A stretch of DNA of 64,000 nt, taken from assembly GCA_030407005.1 (NCBI GenBank), contig JAUDYN010000001.1, positions 434,001 through 498,000 of the forward strand, written 5' to 3'. Under the pieces are notes generated by a model. That model was not told the DNA's origin. It made no database searches and saw only the letters and a program-made list of their open reading frames with translations. The position numbers and the translations under genes are program-made. Shown here one piece after another: positions 47,045 through 64,000 of the stretch (positions are counted from its first letter, which is position 1; every line of letters starts with the position of its first letter). Origin of the DNA: Desarmillaria ectypa (taxonomy: Eukaryota; Basidiomycota; Agaricomycetes; Agaricales; Physalacriaceae).

Positions 47045-47143
47045 ATGCAAATCACCAATGATATATTCACTCAAACCCTTCTCATCCTTGTAACAGCCAT
47101 CATAGCTGTAGCAGGGACTTTCACCCTTTTTCTCCTATTCATT
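47045..47143 (+). pseudogene. Truncated membrane-leader ORF of element F
   Basis: An ATG 62 bases after the LTR opens 33 codons dominated by a hydrophobic segment (LLILVTAIIAVAGTFTLFLL). The next base belongs to the LTR of element D, which was inserted here. The open frame runs on by chance to 47245. Position and character match the ORF at 49577-49717 in element E. It is non-functional in this copy. Confidence 0.5.
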
Positions 47144-47545
47144 TGTTACTATCATGAAATATTGCAGTGTATATCCTTGGCACAAATCAACAAAAATGGC
47201 AAGGGAAGAAAAGCTAAAACATATCTGCCCAGACCACCATTATAGACTCTATATTTAGGTTTTTGCACCAGGTGAGATAAACTTTATTTTGAAGCTAGAG
47301 ATTTATAGCAAGAACTAACTAGTTTATATATTAAAACTGGATAGCTAATAATAGGTAGGTCTATGAGTAGTCCATGTATAAAACAATAAGAAATATCTGT
47401 TGGACAAGCAACTGTTGCTAGCCATGAGCACAATAGCTGAAGTTGTGTTTTATAGACAAGGCAATGGTGATTGTCATGAGTGAAGATGGAGATCAAGATA
47501 ATAAGATAAAGTCAGAAGATAAGATAAGATAAGGAAAAAATTATA
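47144..47545 (-). repeat. 3' LTR of element D
   Basis: On the minus strand it starts TGTTATAATTTTTTCC and ends GATAGTAACA (402 bases). TATA-like TTTTAATATATAAAC sits at the same relative position as in the other LTRs. A purine tract (TGAGAGGGTAA, minus strand) precedes it. Confidence 0.8.
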
Positions 47546-49094: not shown

Positions 49095-49517
49095 TGTTAT
49101 GATTTTTCCGTTATCTTATCTTATCCAAGTCATATCCATGACTCATCCATCTAATCTAGTCCAGAAACCAACTTGTATCCAGCTATTCGCCGGCTACAAC
49201 CCTCATTCTCACCGTCTGTCACCCCAGACGCTTTCTATTGGTCCTATGATCCTCCCAGATCGTCCTCTTTCAACACCGTTTGTGCATGGACTGTAGCGTT
49301 TCATCTAAATATAACGCCATAGAAATACTATATAAACAGAGTAAACTAGACAGTTGTACTCTATCTCTTGTTTTAATTAACATCATATACTTCTTGCTCG
49401 CATAACACCCAAGACTCTCAGCTTCTATATCTCATATTGGGTGATCGTTCGAATGCGTAACAGCCCAGAGGTGTCAGCTGACTGTCCGAAGTCATGTGCT
49501 CAAGTCGGTGCCTAACA
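49095..49517 (+). repeat. 5' LTR of element E (young copy)
   Basis: It starts TGTTATGATTTTTCCG and ends GTGCCTAACA (423 bases). Unlike the other LTRs it keeps many CpGs (TTCGCCGG, CCAGACGC). It is inserted in the integrase of element D. The left flank is TTTTT and the base run after 49517 is TAAAA, so it is not a solo LTR with its own duplication; the internal region of E follows. Confidence 0.85.
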
Positions 49518-49576
49518 TAAAACAAGAGATTTATCCTCCCACTTCTATTACACTAGCTGTATAGAAGATCCCCTTC

Positions 49577-49717
49577 ATGTCTGGAGAAGACAGAAACTCT
49601 CAAGAACCCCGAACCGTGTCTCTCGGCGTCGCCATTCTACTATCATTTTTTATGGTCCTCACCGTATTAATATACGAGGAAGAAATCTGGGCTCTGCTCA
49701 GAAGGCAGCCCCGATGA
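49577..49717 (+). CDS. Small membrane-leader ORF of element E
   Basis: 46 codons starting 60 bases after the LTR. A polar N-terminus (MSGEDRNSQEPRT) leads into a hydrophobic segment of about 20 residues (VSLGVAILLSFFMVLTVLIY), then EEEIWALLRRQPR: one predicted membrane span with a positive end. The stop TGA (49715-49717) coincides with the first bases of the inserted 1360-base LTR. After removing that LTR and its CCGA duplication the frame still meets TGA, then stays open into ORF-a (51082 onward). It may therefore be the N-terminus of a longer protein cut by a CGA to TGA change, or a separate leader whose stop overlaps the next ATG as ATGA. Not known to me from other Ty3 elements. Confidence 0.55.
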   Translation: MSGEDRNSQEPRTVSLGVAILLSFFMVLTVLIYEEEIWALLRRQPR

Positions 49718-51074
49718 TATGCCGTCTACGCATTCACACCTAGATTTTGCGATTTTGTAACAATACTATTGCACATCTATCCTATACTAGTGATACATAG
49801 AGGACTATAGCTGAGGCTTCAAGCTGATAGTTAAAAGCAGTAAGCAACTGGTAGAGCCAGGACTTAGATGCAACACCATTAGTGGGTTAAATCTACCAGC
49901 CGGCCAGACTAGTAACTCGAATGCTAGCAGGACTAAGTGAAATACAGCCACTAGCAAACGAAGGATGGTACTAGCACACCAAAACTAGAAGCAGAGTACA
50001 CAGATCTCGTGAAGTTCTGTCACTAGCAGCCCAGACTGGGCATAAACGCCTAAGTCAGGATAACTAGTCACATGGCAATCTTGAAACAGGACTTGGAAAT
50101 AAATTAGGAATGGATTAACCTTGAGCCCAGATCCGACTATTTTGATATAGATCTCTTATGATCGATGCTAGTGGAGCCGGACTGCACCCTTGATCATGAT
50201 TGGATAGCTGTTACAGGTACCAATATCCGGATATTCATATAACCGCATTACTAGGGCATGTAGTTGTGCCAAGGGCGCAGAAAGACCAACTGTGGAGTCT
50301 CTAGACCGAATATTTGAAAAGAAAACAGACTAGACTGACTATTGTGTGATTATTCACCATTATTCGTGACTAGCCAAGAAATTCTTACCAATATACCCTA
50401 TACCCAGATGATATTTATAGTTTTGCCTCAGTAGTATATAAGTAGTGGGATGGGTGCTCATGCAAAGCAGGCAAGCCATCCCCGCAGTTGAGCCCTCACT
50501 GGTAGTAACTGGTGTCCCCAATCAAAGGCTTTTGTGCTTAACCTCGACGAAGTGATTAATAGTCGCTAAGTCACCCATAGAATTGCATTGAATTGAAGTC
50601 CATTAGAGTCACTGTTGTGTCCTGCAAAGGTCCAGAGTGTTTTGAAGTTAGTTCAAGCAAAGTTCTCGGAGTTATAGTTTATTCTTAGGCCAAGAGTGCC
50701 ACTAGTTAGCCAAGAGTGCGGCTAGTCAAGTGTTTATCACTTGTAGGAAGCAGTATAGGGCCAAGAGCGCCACCAGTCTGAAGCAGTTTCAGTCAGAACG
50801 AGCGCAGTAGCTCAAACCAAGTCACTCTTATCCAATTGTGTCTTACCCACCCCACTAGTATGAGTAGTACTTTGTATAAACTCACTAGTAATGAATAAAA
50901 TGTCTTTAAGACAATTGTACTTGATTATTGAAGTCTGCAGAGTGCTTCCATTGTACTCAAAACCACCCAAATTCAATATTGGTGATTAAGTGTAGAGTAG
51001 TAAGAGGTTTAATGTGATTGGTGTTCATTGCCATTCCCTAATTCTTTTGTCACTCGCCGTTACCAAGCACATCA
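49715..51074 (+). repeat. 1360-base LTR, left copy (plus orientation)
   Basis: It starts TGATATGCCG and ends AAGCACATCA. CCGA occurs directly before (49711-49714) and after (51075-51078), a likely 4-base target duplication. TATATAAG at 50435-50442 and AATAAA at 50894-50899 fit a promoter and poly(A) signal in this orientation. It is nearly identical to the inverted copy at 52781-54140, has the same length, and codes for nothing obvious. The parent element type is not visible. Confidence 0.8.
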
Positions 51075-51078
51075 CCGA

Positions 51079-52131
51079 TGACTCGACCCAGAACCCCGCC
51101 CCGCTCCACCCATCACCAATGACCTTCCCAGGGGGATACCCCCCACAAGACTGGGAGGACGAGAGGAAGTTCCACTCGTTTGCCCCCGGGCCTGCTTCAT
51201 CGTTGGCCCTTCCTCCTCCTCCAAGGAGAGCAGCAATTCATGGCCCCCATCTCTGGGGATCGCAGAACTTCAGGCCCAGATTGCCCAATCCACTCATGCC
51301 TACAACATGAGAGCAGTCCTCCTCCGTTACTGGATGGAACGACCTACCGTCACAATGGAGCAACCAACAGTCGGCCTTACGTAGGCCAAAGAATACACGA
51401 GGGACGTTCGGGCTGCGAATGATGAACCCCCGCCCCCATACCCTGGCCCCCCCCCTCGTCCTCAAACCCCCACCCTCCACGTATCACAGCAGAGGTCAGA
51501 TTCCCCGTCGCCTGACAGTGACAACAGTAGCCGGTCCGGCCACTCCAGACCACAACACCCCGACGATCCCAACATGGATCGGAACCACCCCTACGGCCCC
51601 TGGAGCCATGAGCAGTGGCCAGACGAGGGAGAAGAAATCTCTCTCTCCTCCCTCCCTGTCATTGAAATCTCCAATGATGAGTCCGATGATGACATCGTCG
51701 GAGACAACGCCCCGATCCTGGCTGCTCCCCATGCCACCGACGATCCCTTCAATGCAGACAGGGATGATTTTATCTGGCCCAACCTCTCCGAGGTCGACCA
51801 GAGACTATTCGGTCCATTCCGGACTGCAGCATGGGAGGTTCGATGAAGGGATGTCAAATCTCGAGACCTCTGGGAAGAACCCAGAGTTGAAATAGATGAG
51901 TGGCTTGCCCTTAACAGGGGTGACCCCATCCGAATCCCATTCGGTGGGCCCAGCAATTACTGGGCTAACATCGTCAATCACCAGATCCGTGCAAATTGGG
52001 ACCGGTCAATTTTCTGCCCCTCCACAGGGGATCGCTTTCCAGGGTTACTACCCCAGACCCCTCAGGAGCAGCGAGAACTGGAGAGGACCCTCCAGCACTT
52101 ATGGAGGCTGGAGGTGGCAAGAGAGGAGTGA
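51079..52131 (+). pseudogene. ORF-a of element E: conserved acidic frame upstream of and overlapping gag
   Basis: The frame is open apart from TGA 51079, TAG 51382 and TGA 51844, and ends at TGA 52129-52131. It reads GIAELQAQIAQSTHAYNMRA, a proline-rich part with PPPPYPGPPP at 51427-51456, an acidic part (VIEISNDESDDDIVGDNAPI), then FIWPNLSEVDQRLFGPFRTA and RELERTLQHLWRLEVAREE. The minus-strand element C has the same protein sequence (63196 to beyond 63960) with conservative changes, and stops at the same codon. It is in frame with the membrane-leader ORF upstream of the inserted LTR and overlaps gag by about 235 bases in another frame. Role unknown: a gag-like matrix part or an accessory protein. 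Confidence 0.6.
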
Positions 52132-52780
52132 GGAGGGGCAAGAGCCCCAATACAATACGTTTACCTACGATACAGGTTATTATGGAGGGATGGAATATCA
52201 CCATCCCCAATATGAAATCTATCCGGATCACCCACCAGATACCCCGGTCATAAGCCCACGACCACTTCCTGACTCGCCCCCTCATCACAGGGCGCATCAC
52301 CAAGGATACCACCCCTATCAGGGTGGTAGTCTTCTCTTTGCAGGGGCAGGAGAAGAAATGGAAGCAGAAGGAGCCCCTGCAGGAAATGCCACTGCAGGGG
52401 TGTCAAGAACCCCTGCCATGGCAGAAGAAACCCAGCAGCAGATGCGAGAAGAGCTGCTGGAGAAAGAGCAGTGCATAGCAGAGATGCACAGTGAGCTTGA
52501 CAAGGAAGATTCCATCCGCAAGACATTGGCGGACTACCTCCGAGTCCAAGAGCAAGAGAAGGAGCCGGAGAGGGGGAGACTGCCAGGGCCACCAAGAGCC
52601 TACCCGGGGTACAGGCCAGATTGATTTTCGATCCCAAGACCGCCCCCTGGTCAGGGACCACCTGACCCAATCCTGAACCCGGTCGGGAATGCCACCACCA
52701 ATGCCCTGTATTTGGGCATCAAACCGACCCTCGTCAAGGTCCCTGCCCCGTTCAAAGGGGATCATGATGATATTGAACGC
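51896..52780 (+). pseudogene. gag of element E, truncated by an LTR
   Basis: The frame reads YNTFTYDTGYYGGMEYHHPQ, a coiled coil (QQQMREELLEKEQCIAEMHS), a TGA at 52622-52624 where CGA is likely, and KVPAPFKGDHDDIER, the start of the capsid-like region typical of Ty3 gag. It ends at 52780, where the right 1360-base LTR begins. The start at 51896 (ATG in ATAGATGAG) is tentative because the same frame is open further upstream within ORF-a. CpG-rich and clearly younger than the pol sequence at 54141. Confidence 0.7.
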
Positions 52781-54140
52781 TGATGTGCTTGGTAACGGCG
52801 AGTGACAAAAGAATTAGGGAATGGCAATGAACACCAATCACATTAAACCTTTTACTACTCTACACTTAATCACCAATATTGAATTTGGGTGGTTTTGAGT
52901 ACAATGGAAGCACTCTGCAGACTTCAATAATCAAGTACAATTGTCTTAAAGACATTTTATTCATTACTAGTGAGTTTATACAAAGTACTACTCATACTAG
53001 TGGGGTGGGTAAGACACAATTGGATAAGAGTGACTTGGTTTGAGCTACTGCGCTCGTTCTGACTGAAACTGCTTCAGACTGGTGGCGCTCTTGGCCCTAT
53101 ACTGCTTCCTACAAGTGATAAACACTTGACTAGCCGCACTCTTGGCTAACTAGTGGCACTCTTGGCCTAAGAATAAACTATAACTCCGAGAACTTTGCTT
53201 GAACTAACTTCAAAACACTCTGGACCTTTGCAGGACACAACAGTGACTCTAATGGACTTCAATTCAATGCAATTCTATGGGTGACTTAGCGACTATTAAT
53301 CACTTCGTCGAGGTTAAGCACAAAAGCCTTTGATTGGGGACACCAGTTACTACCAGTGAGGGCTCAACTGCGGGGATGGCTTGCCTGCTTTGCATGAGCA
53401 CCCATCCCACTACTTATATACTACTGAGGCAAAACTATAAATATCATCTGGGTATAGGGTATATTGGTAAGAATTTCTTGGCTAGTCACGAATAATGGTG
53501 AATAATCACACAATAGTCAGTCTAGTCTGTTTTCTTTTCAAATATTCGGTCTAGAGACTCCACAGTTGGTCTTTCTGCGCCCTTGGCACAACTACATGCC
53601 CTAGTAATGCGGTTATATGAATATCCGGATATTGGTACCTGTAACAGCTATCCAATCATGATCAAGGGTGCAGTCCGGCTCCACTAGCATCGATCATAAG
53701 AGATCTATATCAAAATAGTCGGATCTGGGCTCAAGGTTAATCCATTCCTAATTTATTTCCAAGTCCTGTTTCAAGATTGCCATGTGACTAGTTATCCTGA
53801 CTTAGGCGTTTATGCCCAGTCTGGGCTGCTAGTGACAGAACTTCACGAGATCTGTGTACTCTGCTTCTAGTTTTGGTGTGCTAGTACCATCCTTCGTTTG
53901 CTAGTGGCTGTATTTCACTTAGTCCTGCTAGCATTCGAGTTACTAGTCTGGCCGGCTGGTAGATTTAACCCACTAATGGTGTTGCATCTAAGTCCTGGCT
54001 CTACCAGTTGCTTACTGCTTTTAACTATCAGCTTGAAGCCTCAGCTATAGTCCTCTATGTATCACTAGTATAGGATAGATGTGCAATAGTATTGTTACAA
54101 AATCGCAAAATCTAGGTGTGAATGCATAGACAGCATATCA
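52781..54140 (-). repeat. 1360-base LTR, right copy (minus orientation)
   Basis: Reverse complement of the copy at 49715-51074, same length, with very few differences. Its flanks do not match: AACGC on the gag side and CCAGC on the pol side. Its outer 15 bases show two CpG to CpA changes (GCATAGACAG against GCGTAGACGG), while the rest keeps its CpGs. Confidence 0.8.
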
Positions 54141-56648
54141 CCAGCAATCTTCCAATGCATGATGAATAATATCTTTAAAGATCTCATTGCTAGCAGAAAG
54201 GTCACCATTTATCTAGATGATATCCTCATCTTTATGAAAACTTTAGAGGAATATCAACAAATTATTCAACAAGTACTCCAATGATTATGTGAAAACAAAC
54301 TGTTTCTCAAAGCAGAGAAATGTGAATTTGAAGTATTGGAAATTAAATACTTAGGTGTCATCATCAGTAAAGATGCTATATGCATGGATCCTGTTAAAGT
54401 TTCAGGAATAGTCAAGTGGCCAATTCTGACAAAGAAGAAGGAATTACAATCCTTTTTAGGATTCATGAATTTCTATCAGAAGTTCATACAAGATTATTCC
54501 AAAATTGTATGGCCCTTGACTCAATTGACTGGGAACACTGAGTGAAAGTGGGGGAAGAAATATGATCAAGCATTCCAACAACTCAAACTCCAAATAATGA
54601 CCAATGTAATTCTAACAATTCTATCAGATGATGGAAAGTTTAGAATTGAGGCTGATGCAAGTGACAGAGCAATAGACATAGTACTCAGCTAAAACCAAAA
54701 TGGCAAATGGAGGCCCATTGCCTTCATGTTTAAAGCCCTAATGGTTACAGAACATAAGTATAAAATATATGACAAAGAGTTATTAGCAATCATGCTCACA
54801 CTGGAAGAGTGATGGTACTATCTGATGGGTGCCAAAGAGGAAATAGAGATTTGGACAGACCACCAAAATCTCCAATGCTTCCAAAAGCCACAGAAGCTGA
54901 ATTGATGACAGGCTCAGTGGATAACTGAGCCTGCTGAGTACTATTTTGTTCTACAGCACAAAGCTGAAACAGCTAACAGGAAGGCTGACTTACTTGGTCA
55001 ATAAGATGACCATGATTAAGAAAAGGAGGATAACCATGATATGGTAGTCCTCCTTCCCAAACATTTCTGCATGCTGATTCTACCCACTGCAGCTGAAGAA
55101 CAGGAGAAAATCTGAGACACTACCCAGCAGAAGGAGCATTGGGATCATGGGATTGCCAACTCCCTTGATCATAATTGAGGAATCACCCAGCATCAAGGGA
55201 TCCTGTATTATGATGGATGCATTTACATTCCCCAAGATGAAGAATTGTGAGGTGAGATCATCACCTGTCATCATGACCACATCATGGCCAGATATCCTAG
55301 CATCACAAAAACTGCAGAACTCATGCTTCATGATTTTTGGTGGCCAAAACTGAAAGAAGACATTGAATAATATATTAAAGGATGTGAAGTATGCCAGTGC
55401 ACCAAAAGCAGCACACAAACCAAGATAGCACCATTACACCCAAATGTCAGTCCTAATACTCCTTGGGCCCATATTTTTGTTGACATGGTTATGGGATTAC
55501 CAGAATCTAATAGATACATGGCACTATTGATAATAGTAGACTGATTCTCCAAGATCATCATACTGGTTGCCTGTCATAAAGAACTTTCAGCAGAAGGATG
55601 GGCATAAATCTTGCATGACCATGTTTACATAAAATATGGCATGCCCCAGGTGATCATCTCTGATAGAGGGCCCCAATTTGTATCGCTCTTCATGAAAGAT
55701 CTTGTTAGGTACCGCCTTGGGCATGTGACTTGGGAACATCAGCTGATCTCTCTGGGCTGTTATGCATTTGAACAGTTACCCAAGTTGAGAGATAGAAGCT
55801 TTAGTTCTTTGGTGTAGTGTGAGTAAGGAGTATATGATTGAATTTAGTCAAGAGATAGAGTACAACTATGTAGTTTACTCTGTTTATATAGTATTTCTAC
55901 AGCATTATATATAGATGAAATGCTAGAGTCCATGCACAAATGGTGGTGAAGTATGGTGGTCTGGAAGGATCATACAACCAATAGAAAGTGTCTGGGGTGA
56001 CAGATGGTGAGAATGAGGGTAGTAGCCAGCAAGTAGCTCGATACGAGTTGGAATCGATGCTAGATTAGATGGATGAGTCATAGATATGACTCGGATAAGA
56101 TAAGATAATGGAAAAATCATAACAGATCTTTATTATATGCTAAACATTTTGCTGAATGTCTCAACCACCTATCATCCACAAATAGACAGGCAAACAGAAT
56201 GAGTCAACCAGGAGATCAAGAAATATCTCTGCATATTCATCAATCATTGACAGGATGACTGGACAGAGTGGCTACCCCTTGCTAAATTCATGCATAACAA
56301 TTGAATACACTCAGCCATAAGCAAAAGTCCATTTGTAACCCTCTATGGCAGGAGTCCTCAGCTTATGCTCAATTCTATATGGGAAACCCCTTTTGCCAAT
56401 CCTACCATCACAAAATTCACAGAAGCCATGGTACAAGTTCATAAAGAAGTACATGATGCATTGGAAAAGATGGTGACTCAGATGGAGGTGCAGTATAACA
56501 AGGGAAAATGAGCAGCACAGGAGTATCAAATTGGCAACAAAGTCTGGTTAGACACCAGTAACCTCCACCTTTCATGACCAAAGAAAAAGCTCAATGACAA
56601 GAGAACCAGACTCTTCAAAATCCTCAAAAAGACCAGATTATTGGCCTA
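54141..56648 (+). pseudogene. Ty3/gypsy pol remnant (element B): RT, RNase H, integrase
   Basis: It begins inside reverse transcriptase (SPAIFQCMMNNIFKDL; active-site IYLDDILIF), continues through the RT thumb (FLGFMNFYQKFIQDYSK), RNase H (RIEADASD; HLMGAKEEIEIWTDH-like) and the integrase HHCC region (YIKGCEVCQCTKSS). The core ends ISDRGPQFVSLFMKDL at 55702, resumes after the inserted solo LTR as YYMLNI at 56125, and reaches KKKLNDKRTRLFKILKK before element C cuts it at 56649. Many TGA stops replace arginine codons, and CpG is scarce. Upstream RT, protease and gag are missing. Confidence 0.88.
55703..56124 (-). repeat. Solo Ty3 LTR with perfect duplication GATCT
   Basis: On the plus strand it starts TGTTAGGTACCGCC and ends TCATAACA, 422 bases. 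GATCT lies at 55698-55702 and again at 56125-56129. The integrase frame of element B continues exactly if the LTR and one GATCT are removed. Same family as the LTRs of elements C and E. Confidence 0.93.
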
Positions 56649-57074
56649 TGTTAGGTACCGCCCTGGGCACATGACTTGGGACCATCAGCTGATCTCTCTG
56701 GGCCATTATGTGTTCGAATGATCACCCAATGTGAGAGATAAAAGCTTTAGGGTCTTCTGTGTTATGCAGACAAGGAGTATATGATTGTAATTTAAACAAG
56801 AGATAGAGTACAACTGTGTAGTTTACTCTACTTATATAGTATTTCTACAGTGTTTATATATAGATGAAATGCTAGAGTCCATGCACAAATGGTGTCAAAG
56901 TAGGATGATCCAGGAGGATCATAGAACCAATAGAGAATGTCTGGGGTGACAGATGGTGAGAATGAGGGTTGTAGCCGGTGAATAGCTGGATACGAGTTGG
57001 ATTCTTGAATAGATTAGATGGCTGAGTCATGGTTATGACTCGGATAAGATGAGATAAATGGAAAAATCATAACA
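56649..57074 (-). repeat. 3' LTR of element C
   Basis: 426 bases, minus strand, starting TGTTATGATTTTTCC and ending GCGGTACCTAACA. Directly inside lies the polypurine tract (AACAAGGGGGTAA, minus strand, 57075-57087). The outer flank GCCTA (56644-56648) should be the target duplication; its partner lies beyond the right window end. Confidence 0.9.
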
Positions 57075-57106
57075 TTACCCCCTTGTTAAAGCAGTCATCC
57101 CAACTG

Positions 57107-60100
57107 CTAAGGTTCTTCCACAGTGGTGTTGTACTGTGTTGCAATTTGACTGATCCAGTACTGATCAATCAGTTTCTTCCATACGTTCTCATCTGGATTA
57201 ATGATCCATTTTATATATCCATCTTTTCTTTTGGCAAGGTAGGCTATGTTGCCATGTTCCAAATATTCATGGTCCAGTATCTTGACCACTATCTTGTTCT
57301 TGGTTGCGATTTTTGGAGTGTATATGGCGCAGTTCATGCTGGCCTGATACTCTTGGATCGCTTCCAAGACATTCGTCATCTCATTTTCTCAAACCCATGA
57401 ATTGTGTTCACAGGTCCATCCTTTCCACTTGACTAGGTAGTCCGTGACTTCCCTAGATGGTTGTCCTCTCTTGGATTGTACCTTTCTGGTGCACAAGTCC
57501 AAGACTTCTTTGACTTCATATTCTTCTTGACCATTGACGAGATCTGGAGGAGGAGGCGGTGGTTGTTCTTGGTTCGGAAATGAAGGTGAGATGTAGGGAG
57601 TCAACAGTTTTTCATTGAACCGGGGATGGATCTTCCAGTGGGGTGGCAGTTTTAACTTGTAAGCGGCTGCTCCCATCTTCTTGACAATCTTGAATGGTCC
57701 TGTTCACTTGTCGTCGAGCTTTTTCTTTGGTCTGGGAAGATGAAGGTTGGCAGTGTCCAGCCATACCTTGTCCCTGATCCTATACTCCCAGGGAGCCTGT
57801 TTCCTCTTGTCATACTGCGCCTTCATTTGCGCCACTGCCTTTTCCAATGCATCGTGGACCTCTTTATGGACTTTGGCCATGGTCTCTGTAAAATCAACAG
57901 CTGCGGGATTCATGAAACTGGTTTTCTGGATCGATTCAGGAATGAGTCGAGGATTACATCTGTAAAGGACCATGAAAAGACTTTTGCCCATGGCTGAATG
58001 GACTCGGTTGTTGTGGGCAAACTCTGCTAGAGGTAGCCATGCTACCCAGTCTGTCTGTCAGTGATTGACAAAGATGCGAAGATATTTTTCAACCTCCTGG
58101 TTGACTCTCTCTGTCTGTCCATTGGTCTGAGGATAGTATGCCATCGAGGCATTCTGCATGATATCGAGCATTCGATAGAGTTCCTTCATGAATGCTGAGA
58201 CGAACTGGGGTCATTGGTCAGAGATGACCACCTGAGGCATTCCATGCTTTGCATATACATGGTTGCGAAGCATTAATGCCCATCCTTCTGCTGACAACTC
58301 CTCATTGCATGGTATAAGGAGAATGTTCTTGGAAAAATGGTCTACAATGACCAGTAGAGCATCAAATCCTTCTGACTCTGGGAGTCTGGTAATCATGTCG
58401 ACTGAGATGTGAGTCCATGGTGCATCTGGTATTGCATTTGGATGAAGAGGCACAGCTTTGGCCTGCATATTGCTCTTTGTTCATTGACAAGTCTCACATC
58501 CTTTGATATAGGATTCGATGTCTTTCTTCATCTTCGGCCACCAATACTTGCAAAGCATGAGTTCCTTGGTCTTGGTGACTCCTGGATGTCCAGCGGTGAT
58601 ATGATCTCACTGTGTAGAATAGAGTCATTGGGGATATAGATTCGCCCATCATACCACAGGAGTTCATTCTCCTGAGTAATTCCTTGTTCATGATTGAGGG
58701 ATTTCTCGATCCCTCGATCCCACTGATCCTTCTGTCTTGTTGCATCTCTTATATGCATGATTCATTCTTTGGTTGTTGGTAATACCAATGCTCAGAAATG
58801 TTCTGGAGATAGAACAACAACGTCTTGATTGTCTTCTTTTCCCTGATTATGATTGTCTCATCGGCTGAGAAGATCAGCCCTCTGGTTTGCAGTTCCAGCT
58901 TTGTGTTGGAGAATAAAGTGGTACTCCGCTAGTTTGGTGACCCACTGAGCTTGTCGGCAGTTCAACTTCTGGGGTTTCTGGAAGTACTGGAGATTCTGGT
59001 GATCCGTTCAGATCTCAATGGTCTCTTTAGCGCCCATAAGGTAATGGCACCATTCTTCGAGAGCTAGCATGATTGCTAGGAGTTCCTTATCATAGATTTC
59101 ATAATTGTGCTCAGTGACAGTGAGTGCTTTTGACATGAAAGCGATGGGCCTCCATTTGCCATCCTTTTCTTGACTTAGGACAGCTTCTATAGCACCGTCA
59201 CTAGCATCTGCTTCTACTTGGAACTTTCCATTGTCCGAGGGAATCGTAAGAACTACATTTGTCATCATCAACTTCTTGAGTTGTCTAAATGCTTGTTCTT
59301 GTTCTAATCCCCATGTTCAGTCTACCTTTCTGGTTAGCTGGGTAAGGGGGCATACAATCTTGGAGTAGTCCCGAATGAACTTTTGGTAAAAGTTTGTGAA
59401 TCCTAAGAAGGACTGTAGTTCCTTCTTCTTCATCGGGGTAGGCCATTCTGCTATGCCTGCAATCTTGACTGGGTCCATGCGAATGGCATCTTCGCTGATG
59501 ATTACTCCAAGGTATTCGGTTTCCAATACCTCAAACTCGCACTTCTTGGCTTTGAGGAACAGCTTGTTCTCTCTGAGATGTTGGAGTACTTGTCGCACTA
59601 TGTCTCAATGTTCAGACAAGGATTTTGTGAATATTAGAATGTCGTTGAGGTAAATTGTGACTTTTCCTCCAGCGATTAAATCCTTGAATATATCATTCAT
59701 CATTCACTGAAATGTGGCAGGTGAATTCATGAGTCCGAAGAACATGACTGTAGGTTCAAAGAGACCTTGGTTAGTTCTGAAAGCAGCCTTTTCTTCATCT
59801 CCATCTCAGATCTGGACATTGTTGTATCCCCATTGAATGTCCAACTTGGAGAAATATTTGGCTCCACATAGTTTATCGATGAGTTTGGAGATCAGAGGAA
59901 GGGGATAACAATTCTTGATTGTCATTTCATTCAGTTTTTGGTAATCCTGAACCGGTCATAATGAGCCATCCTTTTTCTTGACAAAGAAGAAGGGAGAGGT
60001 GAAAGGGGATTTCGAGGGACGAATATGTCCTGAGTCTAAGTTCTCATCGAGAAACTTGTCCAGTTATTCTTGTTCATTTCGGTTGAGCGGGTAGACTTTA

Positions 60101-61032
60101 CAGTCTAGGGTCAATTTTGCGTTGGGGATTAGCTCAATGGTGTGGTCCCAGGGTCTTCTTTCTGATAATTCGTCAAAGCTTTCTTTTGAGAATAGATCTC
60201 TAAAGCTTTGATACTGAGGAGGCACAAGCTTCTCGAACGTCTGTTTTGGTTTTTCTGTGTTGGTGGCTGCGGCCAACTCATTCGCATGATGAACAGCATG
60301 AAGGATGATTTCTTCTTGCATGTTGACCACAAGAATACTTTCCCCTTCCTCGAGCTCTTTGTCCCATCCATCTTCTTCATCTGCATCCAGTAGAGTGAAG
60401 TGGTCCTGGATACAATGACATTGTCTGAATATCAAGGTTCCTGCCTTTCAGTTGATGAAAGGATTGTGGCATTTAAGCCAGTCATGGCCCAGATACACTG
60501 TCTTGGAGCCCAAGTCAGTGACTGCAAGGTCAATTCGTTCACTATGGTCTCTGATGGTCATTCAGAGTTCCACAAACTCGGTTACATCCCCTGCCTTATT
60601 GTGCATTCCATCAGCATTATAGACCAGTATAGGGGCTGTGGCCTTCCTGGTATCTAACTGATGTTGTTGGACATAGGTTCGATTGATAGAGCTGCCTGTA
60701 CAGCCACTATCCAACAATGCTCAGGTTGTCAACATCTGTTTCCCAGTACATGGGGAAAGCTGAATATCCACCAGGAAATCCTGACTGGAACTCTTGGTAC
60801 CACGGATATAGCAGATCGGTTCATGTAGTTCATAGAGCTGTTCTCGGGCTATACTCCCTCCCGTCTTTAAGCTTTGGATAAGCTCATCATCAATTTCTCC
60901 AAGTTGTTTGGGATGTACCCAAATGGAGAGAACCACTCTGGCGACTACCAGGTTCTTGGAGCTACGAACTGCGTGCAACGTCCAATCAATCCTGAATGGT
61001 TTGAGCCATTGGTGATCATCCTGCTTCCCCAT
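57107..61032 (-). pseudogene. pol of element C: protease, RT, RNase H, integrase, chromodomain
   Basis: Minus strand, from 61032 down. The aspartic protease has LLDSGCTGSS (60693-60716). RT follows ([24 protein letters not shown]-stop-MMNDIFKDLI). The YxDD box reads YLND (asparagine codon at 59644-59646), so a catalytic aspartate is lost. RNase H (VEADASD; HYLMGAKETIEI) is followed by the integrase HHCC and core (YIKGCETCQ-stop-TKSNMQ; SVDMITRLPESEGFDALLVI), the GPY/F region, and the chromodomain (DYLVKWKGWTCEHNSWV) near 57430. Stops occur mainly as TGA where paralogues have arginine, for example DDK-stop-TGPF near 57697 and SEH-stop-DIVRQ near 59610. Confidence 0.9.
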
Positions 61033-62105
61033 ATGTTTGGAAGACTTGTCTTGTTCCTCAATGCCTTGGGGAACTTCCAGTGTTCTGTGCTTCCCTGTAT
61101 GTTTAGAAGCATTTGATACCCCCTTGTTAAGATGGGTGTCAGGTTCAACACTTCCCCATGCATTCGGAAGGTTGATGGTCTGTTTTTCCAGTGTTCTGGA
61201 TATCGGGGTACTGGCTTTGGATTGGCTGATTTGCCAAATCCTAAAGGCAGTGTCATCTTCTTCATCGGGTACTTCGACGATGGTGGTCCTGCTGAAATGC
61301 CCCCTTTTTACTACCTGGGCACTAGCAGGTTCCTGTCCCTGTCAGGGTACAGCCACTGATGGGAATTTGTCAGCCAGCTTGCCTTCATATCCCTGGTCAG
61401 TACCCCTGTGTTCTTCGGCTGGCACCACTTTCGACAGAGTTTGAATTTCCTTGGTCATTGACTCCCAGTTGGTGCTACCATCATGCCCATTGTTTGGGTA
61501 CCTCTGCCCCCTTTCTATCGCCTGGGTGCTAGCAACTTCCTTCCTATTGGCTTTGATCCTGTGACTCTCCGGCCCAGTGGGATACTCAGCCTCGTCAGGT
61601 TTTCTTCTGCCTGGACCAGTTCATCCAGGGCTTTGTTGCTGACCTTGGTTAGAGGTGTCGTTCTGTTCCTCTGCCAACCCTGGTGGTACTGGTGAGCTTG
61701 CCCCTCTACTCAAGGAGGGTACTGGGATGGTCAGACTTCTGGGAGGCCCGAGGGAGTCCCACCTACTGGTCCCTACCTGTTGCTGATTGCTCAGCAGCGT
61801 ATCTGGTGAGCTCAGCTTGTTGGACTTCATCGCAGCACCAGCACCATCTGGCAAGTCCCACTCCAGTCCGTCAGATGTTCGGGATTTGTCACTATAGATA
61901 CTTGTGTCAGTGTCTTCTAGAAGGATGACATACCTGTTTTTGTTTGTTGATTCTTGTTTGGTCTTCAGCTTCAGTTTCTGTGAAGTCATAGATATATTGT
62001 TTTTCATATGTAATAGTCTGTTTTCATAGTAATCAGTCTGACCTGCAGAAACCAAGGACACACCTTGAGACTTGGGCAAGCAAGGGGAATCGAACCCTTG
62101 ACACC
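61033..62105 (-). pseudogene. Linker between gag and protease of element C
   Basis: Open minus-strand stretches without domains, rich in Ser, Pro and Gln, one with KNRYVILLEDTDTS, as in Ty3 gag-pol linkers. Several frame changes. A T-arm-like GGTTCGATTCC near 62095 lies inside coding-like sequence and is probably chance. Confidence 0.55.
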
Positions 62106-63990
62106 CTACTCTTTTACCTCCTCAACTTTGGAGGTGCTCGGCACCACTGTGTCAGTGGGCCCCACATATTGCACCACATTCTTCTCTTTTATAGGGCAGT
62201 TTCTGCTCAGGTGTCTCTTCTCATTGCACCTGAAGCAGCGCCCCTTGGCTTGTTGCCAGTCTACGTCCATGGACTTCCCTGCCCCTCCATATGTTGTCCA
62301 CTTACCAGTTCCAGCATCACAACTGGTTCCTCCACTCCCAGCAGTTGGCTTTGGGGCTGAGAAACTTGTTGCCCCAGCGATGTTCTTGCTGCTGGGCTGC
62401 TGTTGTTGGGGATGCGGGCCCTGCTTCTGGCCATCCTGAGGCATACTAGTGGTCTGGTCAAAGGCCCACTTCCACTGTCTCTCTTCATACATCCAGAGGA
62501 TGTGTTCCTTCCACTCTGGATATGAGCACAGGATATTGATGCTCATGTTTGAGATGAAGGTCATGTAGGAGAATGGTACTTCTAGACGAACAGCCTTCAC
62601 CATGGCACTGTGCTCAGCTTCATCGGTCCTTCAGCCCACTAGCTTGGCTTCCTCTTCAAGCTTCTGGAAATAATGAGAGGCAGGCTGAGCTCCCATGCGC
62701 AAGTCGAACATGCACTTTTCATGGATCTCCTTGATGGCGGGATCCCAAAATTGTTGTGTGACTAGGTCAACAAAGTCAGCCCAGTCGGGGTATCTGAAGT
62801 GGGTCTTGCAGGCAGATTCCTCCCTGTCGAGTTCTTCGCACATTTCTGCAATGCGCCACTCTTTTTCCATCAGCGCAGTTTTCATCTGCTGACGGATTTC
62901 CTCTGTCATAGCAGGGGTTCTTGATGCCCCTGCAGTGGCATTTCCTGCAGGGGCTCCTTTGGCTTCCATATCTTCTCCTGCCCCTGCGAAGAGAAGACTA
63001 CCACCCTGATAAGGGTGGTATCCTTGGTGACATGCCCAATGATGCAGGAGCGAGTTGGGAAGTGGTCATGGGTTTGCGACCAGTGTATCCAGGGGGTGAT
63101 CTGGATATATTTCATATTGGGGCTGGTGATAGTCCAGCCTGCCATAATAACCTGTACCATAGGTTAAAGTATTGTATGGGGCCCTTTGCCCCCAATCACT
63201 CCTCTCTTGCCACCTCCAACCTCCATAAGTGCTGGAGGGTTCTCTCCAGTTCCCGCTGCTCTGCTGGATCTCAGGGCCAAAGCCCTGGAAATAGATCCCC
63301 TGCAGAGGGGTGGAATATACTCTGGTCGCAGTTGGCACGAATCCGGGCGGCAACAATATCGGCCCTACTGGGGCCATTGATTGGGACTCGAATGGGGTCC
63401 TCTCTGTTGAGGGCCAGCTACTCATCCATCTCAATTCTAGGCTCATCCCAGAGATCATGGGCTTTGACATCTTAGTGTCGAACTTCCCAGGCAGCAGTCC
63501 GGAAGGGACCAAAGAGTCTTCTATCGACCTTGGAGAGGTTGGGCCAGATGAAATCCCCCCCATTTGGGTTGAAGGGGTCATCGGGGGTGTGGGGAGGGGC
63601 TGGGATTGGGGCGTTGTCTCCGACAATGTCATCATCGGACTCATCATTGGAGATTTTGATGATGGGGAGAGAGGAGAGAGAGATTGACTCTCCTTCCTCA
63701 GGCCATGCTTCACAGCCCCAGGGGCCATAAGGGTGGTTTCAATCCATGGCAGGATCATCTGGATTTCGGGGTCTGTGGTAGGACCCATCGCTGTCCAGGG
63801 AGGGAGAGCAAGATCGTACATGCCAGTGTTGCTGGTGGAGGGCAGGGGTTGGGGGACGAGGGGGAGGGCCGGGGTAAGTGGGCGGGGGGTCATTGAGTGC
63901 AAGCCGAACATCCCATGCATATTCTTGGGCCACTGTGATGGCAGTGGTGGGTCGTTCCATCTGGTACTGGAGTAGAACTGCTTGCGCATT
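62106..63990 (-). pseudogene. gag and ORF-a region of element C
   Basis: Minus strand, from the right. ORF-a has PPPTYPGPPP near 63870, SNDESDDDIVGDNAPIPAPP, FIWPNLSKVDRRLFGPFRTA, and ends LEVAREE at 63196-63198 with stops in between. The overlapping gag frame (YNTLTYGTGYYGRLDYHQPQ) follows. Then comes the coiled coil (RQQMKTALMEKEWRIAEMCE) joined directly to FRYPDWADFVDLVTQQFWDP: compared with element E, the stretch that should hold the PFKGDHDDIER segment is deleted. The zinc knuckle CFRCNEKRHLSRNC is at 62196-62237. It packages RNA in functional elements; here it is broken by a stop before RTDEAEHSAM and by the deletion. Confidence 0.75.
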
Positions 63991-64000
63991 ATGTGTGTGG

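Follow-up and report, generated by a model that had tools for sequence, protein, structure and literature searches.

Self-priming of the Tf1 type is an established mechanism, and self-primed, chromodomain-bearing Ty3 elements, the fungal chromoviruses, are the closest described systems to the retrotransposon family that we report here. Their clades and structures have been surveyed; in the accessible portion of that survey, most full-length elements consist of one fused gag-pol open reading frame (ORF) or of two ORFs, self-priming is mentioned, and gypsy elements with an 'add. ORF' of unexplained function are drawn in a figure that spans fungal elements and one spikemoss element (PMC2864245). 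Elements with long terminal repeats (LTRs) from plants and bdelloids harbour lineage-specific accessory ORFs, some with membrane spans, mostly called ORF3; 'overlap' is absent from the main text of that report (PMC5408684). Our analysis concerns a 64,000-nucleotide stretch of the basidiomycete Desarmillaria ectypa (hereafter the window; bases 434001-498000 of contig JAUDYN010000001.1, assembly GCA_030407005.1), in which a Ty3 element, E, carries an additional reading frame, ORF-a, that precedes gag and overlaps it. The genome searched is the 40.6-Mb assembly, in 32 contigs.

The ORF-a-bearing Ty3 family is a high-copy family of self-primed, chromodomain-bearing Ty3/gypsy elements with Tf1-like priming and an extra gene before gag. 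With the Tf1-type elements it shares a self-priming match after the LTR and a chromodomain plus a Tf2-1-type SH3 domain near the end of pol; the overlapping extra ORF before gag sets it apart from the chromoviruses described in the accessible portion of the survey (PMC2864245). It resembles the 'add. ORF' gypsy elements, compared by figure legend alone, in having an ORF besides gag and pol (PMC2864245), and the plant and bdelloid elements in the accessory nature of that ORF. It does not look like the envelope-bearing (errantivirus-like) elements, in which an env-like ORF with a C-terminal anchor lies downstream of pol, as ORF-a lies before gag and has its span at the N-terminus (no search for another ORF was made past pol). 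In the literature searched, subscription journals being mostly outside that search, we came across no account of a membrane-anchored protein whose gene overlaps gag in a different frame. Extra ORFs of LTR elements are already known; the overlap of a membrane-anchored gene with gag appears to be new. Such ORFs are easy to list and hard to prove, and the many native copies present here permit a clean test.

An earlier note, made from the letters of the window, had pointed to an ORF with one hydrophobic span in E, the leader ORF, which would be in frame with ORF-a once an inserted LTR is removed, and had raised the possibility of one long ORF of about 400 codons. The leader ORF does begin 60 bases past the LTR end and encodes a hydrophobic span (19-residue Kyte-Doolittle mean 2.71); the inserted LTR closes it, the opening bases of the insert providing the stop. 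Continuity was tested on other native copies instead of by excising the insert of E. Genome searches with the leader yielded 337 first-look candidates and those with the ORF-a stretch 238, 40 of which were scored in each case. The set used below comprises 54 distinct copies whose match begins at the ORF-a ATG and reaches query base 1280 or beyond; E and partial copies were excluded. As these copies were picked for their resemblance to E and to a single young copy, open ones may be over-represented.

Read from the leader ATG, the ORF-a frame stays open for 380 codons or more in 18 of the 54 copies, one of which, L083, is counted only via a frame change. Sixteen of these 18 have a single ORF of 394-403 codons, which ends in LEMARED, LEVARED or LEVAREE in 14 cases and a few codons earlier in the other two. 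A protein-level search of the genome gave 107 ORF-a matches (104 of 920 candidates scored), 15 of which cover residues 1-399 without a stop; two of the latter score identically and may represent one copy assembled twice. We conclude that leader and ORF-a together form a single gene of about 400 codons, as had been proposed, and no closed leader was encountered in intact copies. The common end of ORF-a noted earlier for E and for a second element of the window, C, was also found (...HLWRLEVAREE followed by the stop, at about 63199 on the minus strand in C). Among the 36 copies not counted as open to codon 380, L062 is open throughout and enters the gag frame. Over its full length, the ORF-a frame shows 116 stop cells in 39 of the 54 copies, 109 of them TGA, and this dominance of TGA is the mark of CpG decay in silenced or dead copies. 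TGA recoding was considered as a cause of the many TGA stops and set aside, since 70 of the 116 fall at CGA codons of the reference copy, as CpG decay predicts.

The gag frame is +1 relative to ORF-a, opens just past the membrane span and continues through the gag domain. It was called Gag from a weak match to Retrotrans_gag (PF03732) in L053, below the cut-off (E=5.8e-4, 20.5 bits versus 24.1), the gag frame of this copy being open for 821 codons. The Gag ATG lies inside ORF-a, about 190 bases past the ORF-a ATG, and encodes Met in 54/54 copies. The stretch between this ATG and the ORF-a stop, about 336 codons long, is read in both frames, which bears out the overlap in another frame that had been noticed in E. 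We shuffled codons in six open copies, over 351-354 codons per copy from the last gag-frame stop to the ORF-a end; these copies are related and hence not independent. Exchanging synonymous ORF-a codons created 3.6-4.5 gag-frame stops on average versus none seen (p 0.0005-0.0045 per copy), and the reciprocal shuffle of gag-frame codons created 7.1-8.5 stops in the ORF-a frame versus none seen (p<=0.0005). Across the 54 copies, the overlap contains 17 stop cells in the gag frame (in 14 copies) versus 803 in the third frame (in all 54); in the 200 bases past the ORF-a end, there are 122 in the ORF-a frame (49 copies) and one in the gag frame. These counts show that both frames are open in native copies beyond chance.

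Selection was analysed by a regression in which each possible single change from a native reference copy was scored for its presence in at least two (or at least three) other copies, with joint terms for mutation type, CpG context and the effect on the amino acid in either frame. All 54 copies were used, and L044, L050 and L039 served as references. The values below are relative nonsynonymous rates with L044 as the reference and alleles present in at least two copies, unless stated otherwise. The leader, which codes for ORF-a only, gave 0.05 (p=1e-8) for that frame. Over the whole overlap, the rates are 0.28 for ORF-a (p=4e-26) and 0.52 for gag (p=2e-7). By segment, ORF-a and gag have rates of 0.44 (p=1e-3) and 0.30 (p=2e-9) at 190-490, 0.40 (p=9e-4) and 0.96 (p=0.21) at 490-700, 0.25 (p=1e-13) and 0.77 (p=0.33) at 700-1021, and 0.10 (p=2e-11) and 0.41 (p=0.009; p=0.008 with L050 and 0.037 with L039) at 1021-1197. 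Past the ORF-a stop, the ORF-a frame is at 0.58 (p=0.43) and gag at 0.10 (p=1e-8). The L050 reference is concordant (gag at 190-490, p=8e-10). The young subfamily alone (23 copies, L044) gave p=4e-12 for ORF-a and p=1e-3 for gag in the overlap, with p=0.015 for gag at 190-490; its gag term at 700-1021 has p=0.005 with a mean rate of 0.98 and is not readable as constraint. As a control, a mock third frame put in the place of gag gave 1.15, 1.18 and 1.26 in the overlap (p=0.25, 0.41 and 0.23 with L044, L050 and L039, respectively), and at 190-490 its rates deviate in the direction opposite to constraint (1.73, p=0.01; 1.47, p=0.045; 1.23, p=0.38, in the same order). A simple pair test on eight disjoint pairs formed by 16 of the 18 open copies (L083 and L097 were dropped) agrees for ORF-a, at 0.40-0.41.

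ORF-a is therefore under protein-level constraint along its length, the point on which the earlier note had made its proposal depend. That only Gag is translated and ORF-a is an accidental open frame is hardly credible: the 36 copies not counted as open and the lack of any known ORF-a relative (see below) would fit such a view, but over most of the overlap constraint is stronger on ORF-a than on gag, it is already present on ORF-a in the leader, before the Gag start, and the ORF-a stops follow the CpG decay pattern of dead copies. Conversely, ORF-a might be the only frame translated in the overlap, with the real Gag starting further down and the open gag frame being a by-product of ORF-a composition. 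The gag frame at 490-1021, a low-complexity stretch rich in Pro, Ser and Thr without Gag amino-acid constraint, speaks for this possibility. We nevertheless consider it very unlikely, given the absence of the roughly four gag-frame stops that the synonymous shuffle creates, the fixed ATG at which constraint begins and the scarcity of gag-stop alleles in the overlap. With L044, 6 such alleles are seen of 115 possible versus 19.4 expected if the gag frame were irrelevant; the corresponding figures are 7 versus 18.1 with L050 and 8 versus 20.1 with L039.

Gag is separately constrained, which is carried by its first ~100 codons, its middle part showing stop avoidance only. Before its ATG, the gag frame is free or undecided (0.75, 0.80 and 0.37; p=0.53, 0.45 and 0.12 with L044, L050 and L039), and the 20 codons from the ATG onwards are constrained (0.13, 0.13 and 0.19; p=3e-6, 3e-6 and 1e-3). 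Because of this change at the ATG, Gag most likely starts at the conserved ATG inside ORF-a. The same data bear on another arrangement, in which ORF-a would be the N-terminal half of Gag, with ribosomes starting at ORF-a and shifting +1 into gag near its end. Ty3 itself shifts +1 between GAG3 and POL3, gag sits here in the +1 frame relative to ORF-a, and ORF-a comes first, its ATG being the earliest one downstream of the primer site in E. However, a shift near the ORF-a end would leave the first codons of Gag untranslated in the gag frame and cannot explain the constraint found there and at 190-490. We regard this arrangement as quite unlikely.

Several observations weigh against two separately selected proteins. 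With the L039 reference the signal is weaker, p=0.004 for gag in the overlap (0.024 when at least three carriers are required) and, at 190-490, p=0.026 for gag (0.056) and p=0.049 for ORF-a (0.092). Over the 54 copies, gag lacks amino-acid constraint at 490-1021, where 3 stop alleles are seen versus 7.5 expected (L044). The leader, where gag is not coded, still yields p=0.015-0.09 for the gag frame, and the gag p-values at 1021-1197 therefore count for little; with L044 and L050, the gag p-values at 190-490 and for the overlap as a whole do carry weight. Pair-based ratios of nonsynonymous to synonymous rates (dN/dS) were rejected for gag, as they gave spurious values of 0.42-0.58 in the leader.

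Checked against a non-coding frame, both frames thus show independent constraint, less clearly with L039 and, for gag at 490-1021, by stop avoidance only; the purifying selection shown on each frame is not explained by the other frame. We take it as almost certain that the ORF-a gene and its overlap with gag are real, and as very probable, on the strength of these sequence patterns, that ORF-a, the overlap and the separate translation of the two proteins hold together. This is an unusually long case of one DNA stretch under selection for two proteins, with about a kilobase of a retrotransposon coding for both at once, and its many copies provide a replicated system for studying the origin of overlapping genes and shared constraint. 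It also raises the question of why an element without a known envelope gene keeps a membrane-anchored protein.

Regarding expression, a single RNA might make both proteins, ORF-a being translated from the first of two AUGs, in a poor context, and ribosomes missing that AUG reaching the Gag AUG by leaky scanning. The position -3 of the ORF-a ATG is C or T in 54/54 copies, and 32/54 copies have no ATG between the two starts, so that a scanning ribosome could skip the first AUG and take the second. Three features are at odds with this model: Gag has C at -3 of its own ATG in all eight listed contexts (40/54 copies), which is not a favourable context; 22/54 copies have an ATG between the two starts; and 30/54 have at least one ATG within the 95 bases upstream of ORF-a. 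On balance, leaky scanning probably produces Gag, an assignment that we make with some reserve. In E, two short upstream ATGs precede that of ORF-a at 49440-49577, downstream of the presumed RNA start.

The ORF-a protein has a short N-terminus, one hydrophobic span at about residues 15-37, a basic stretch, some 350 mostly polar residues and a conserved C-terminal part. The span is found in 54/54 copies (lowest mean 2.36), and the product is very probably located at a membrane; the basic run that follows the span suggests that the tail is cytosolic. Over the 54 copies, conservation is highest at the two ends, in residues 1-45 (0.91-0.92) and in the final 100 residues (0.79-0.93). The weakly kept middle contains two islands, a 15-codon window with EPPPPYP at 0.87 (neighbours 0.59 and 0.75) and SSLPVIEISDDESDD, a SUMO-interaction-like sequence at 0.94 (neighbours 0.75 and 0.59); motifs of the SSLP[VI]I[EK][IVL] type account for 52 matches over the 54 copies. 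PPxY motifs bind Nedd4/Rsp5 ligases, and V/I-rich stretches before acidic serines bind SUMO. At the PPxY site, the 54 copies give 43 PPPPY hits and one PPPLY hit, and element C has PPPTY, the variation affecting the free position.

The yeast proteins Rcr1 and Ssh4 are single-span PPxY adaptors of Rsp5, and ORF-a is like them in combining a single span close to the N-terminus with a PPxY-bearing tail, a likeness of layout and not of compared sequences. By analogy, the ORF-a protein might reside in an internal membrane, its long tail exposed to the cytosol, recruit a Nedd4/Rsp5-type ubiquitin ligase through its PPxY and serve Gag particles as a membrane adaptor or a matrix substitute. The N-terminally anchored accessory or matrix protein envisaged in the earlier note is thus upheld as far as the span and the long ORF under purifying selection separate from that of gag are concerned, and a role as a PPxY adaptor or matrix-like protein is put forward only tentatively. 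Speaking against it, 7/54 copies lack any PPxY at that site, and the PPxY stretch is also conserved in the Gag frame (0.91), so that the motif may not be kept for itself. Furthermore, comparison of the ORF-a protein with a large protein collection gave no match at E<=0.001 among 7,993 candidates scored, and the 94-residue C-terminal piece from E was modelled at a mean predicted local distance difference test (pLDDT) score of 47.6, with no usable fold.

ORF-a might instead encode a membrane protein of an envelope-like or pore-forming kind, or a factor that interacts with the host via the SUMO-interaction-like motif, and we hold such functions to be possible too. The strong span present in every copy and the conserved SUMO-interaction-like island are in line with them, but with the span so close to the N-terminus and a cytosolic tail, almost nothing of the protein would be outside, and no Pfam family scored above its cut-off for ORF-a. 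Mito_fiss_reg was the Pfam candidate rejected as compositional: four of six members matched at E<=0.1 (best E 9.6e-4), and in L050 the match (15.7 bits versus a cut-off of 26.3) covers residues 112-193, including the proline-rich stretch. Searches of the PDB with the ORF-a sequence and with a six-row profile returned nothing. The gag-frame protein had no match at E<=0.001 among 7,992 candidates scored from the large protein collection, and none in IMG/VR.

The glycosylated Gag of murine leukaemia virus is membrane-anchored and begun upstream of the Gag AUG on the same RNA. ORF-a would share the anchor and the upstream start on a common RNA, but glycosylated Gag is in the frame and sequence of Gag, whereas ORF-a is in another frame. 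A more far-reaching scenario is that an intracellular Ty3 element has evolved a membrane-anchored PPxY partner for Gag by overprinting, its particles being assembled on or moved through host membranes via ubiquitin and the endosomal sorting complexes required for transport (ESCRT), with the leader ORF of another family of the window, F, as a second instance, independent or very divergent. We consider it unlikely; if true, the overprinted partner would be a working parallel to glycosylated Gag and retroviral late domains that arose without an envelope gene.

The assignment of the family rests on the following features. Of the 30 leader loci, the 16 with a located LTR end, E included, all show a self-priming match of 13-14 nt (the other 14 were unscored): the sequence directly downstream of the LTR is reverse-complementary to a stretch inside the LTR beginning about 155 bases before the LTR end, and in two loci a changed primer-site base is matched in the locus's own LTR. 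Element C, a degenerate minus-strand insertion of the same family with both LTRs (56644-64000, and locus L099), is flanked on both sides by the 5-base repeat GCCTA (56644-56648 on the 3' LTR side). On the minus strand, it shows in order the gag frame (63.99-62.93 kb), the end of the reverse transcriptase (RT; 59.6-59.3 kb, E=0.007, below cut-off), a strong RNase H (59.3-59.0 kb), the integrase (58.5-58.2 kb; rve, 26 bits, under the cut-off of 32.6) and a chromodomain (57.7-57.4 kb; PF00385, 28 bits, above the cut-off of 25.1). Gag followed by RT, RNase H and integrase, and integrase followed by a chromodomain, is the arrangement of a Ty3/gypsy chromovirus (Metaviridae).

Table 1. Positions in the window of the features of elements E and C and of the family F leader ORF.
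Feature	Position	Strand	Remarks
Leader ORF with one membrane span, different family (F)	47045..47242	+	ATG 47045, 66 codons, span mean 2.6
5' LTR, element E	49095..49517	+	423 bp, TGTTA...TAACA, ends read from sequence
LTR stretch complementary to primer site, presumed RNA 5' end (Tf1-type self-priming)	49363..49375	+	13-nt exact reverse complement of 49518-49530
Primer-binding site for self-priming, element E	49518..49530	+	match to LTR
N-terminal part of ORF-a in E, leader ORF with one membrane span	49577..49714	+	ATG 49577, 46 codons
Inserted LTR of another family, splits ORF-a of E	49715..51074	+	4-base repeat CCGA on both sides; inverted near-copy at 52778-54140
Remainder of ORF-a in E	51075..52131	+	ends LEVAREE stop (52129-52131); 2 TGA and 1 TAG inside
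N-terminal part of gag frame in E (+1 relative to ORF-a)	51119..52624	+	starts at conserved ATG; interrupted in E
3' LTR, element C	56649..57074	-	95.6% identical to its 5' LTR outside the window
Pol pieces assigned to element C	57389..59598	-	RT end (weak), RNase H, integrase core (below cut-off), Tf2-1-type SH3 (below cut-off), chromodomain
Gag-frame N-terminal region, element C, overlapping its ORF-a	62934..63989	-	
ORF-a (degenerate), element C	63199..64000	-	61% identical protein; 7 TGA, 1 TAG, 2 TAA; runs beyond the window

Element E is a dead copy, as its ORF-a frame holds three stops (Table 1); its doubly read stretch is 51119-52131. A search with part of its 5' LTR (49095-49378) gave matches of 92-95% at 39 other scored places, of 699 candidates, and the relatives of this LTR within the window are 83-85% identical. 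The two LTRs of another family found in E, 1.7 kb apart and in opposite orientation, have 4 mismatches over 1363 positions. The first is bordered by its 4-base repeat, the flanks of the second are unlike, and gag of E runs directly into RT-like sequence; a stretch of E has therefore probably been lost at the second inserted LTR. A further LTR of the E family is located at 55703-56124 on the minus strand (83% identity to that of E), about 950 bases from the 3' LTR of C, and an integrase-end fragment in the opposite direction lies between the two.

The ORF of similar character that had been reported for family F was confirmed about 62 bases after the apparent end of a presumed LTR, and it is a separate, shorter ORF. 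It has 28 protein matches in the genome including itself; the other 27 are 36-86% identical, and nine of them are free of stops. Leader membrane ORFs may be common among the elements of this genome.

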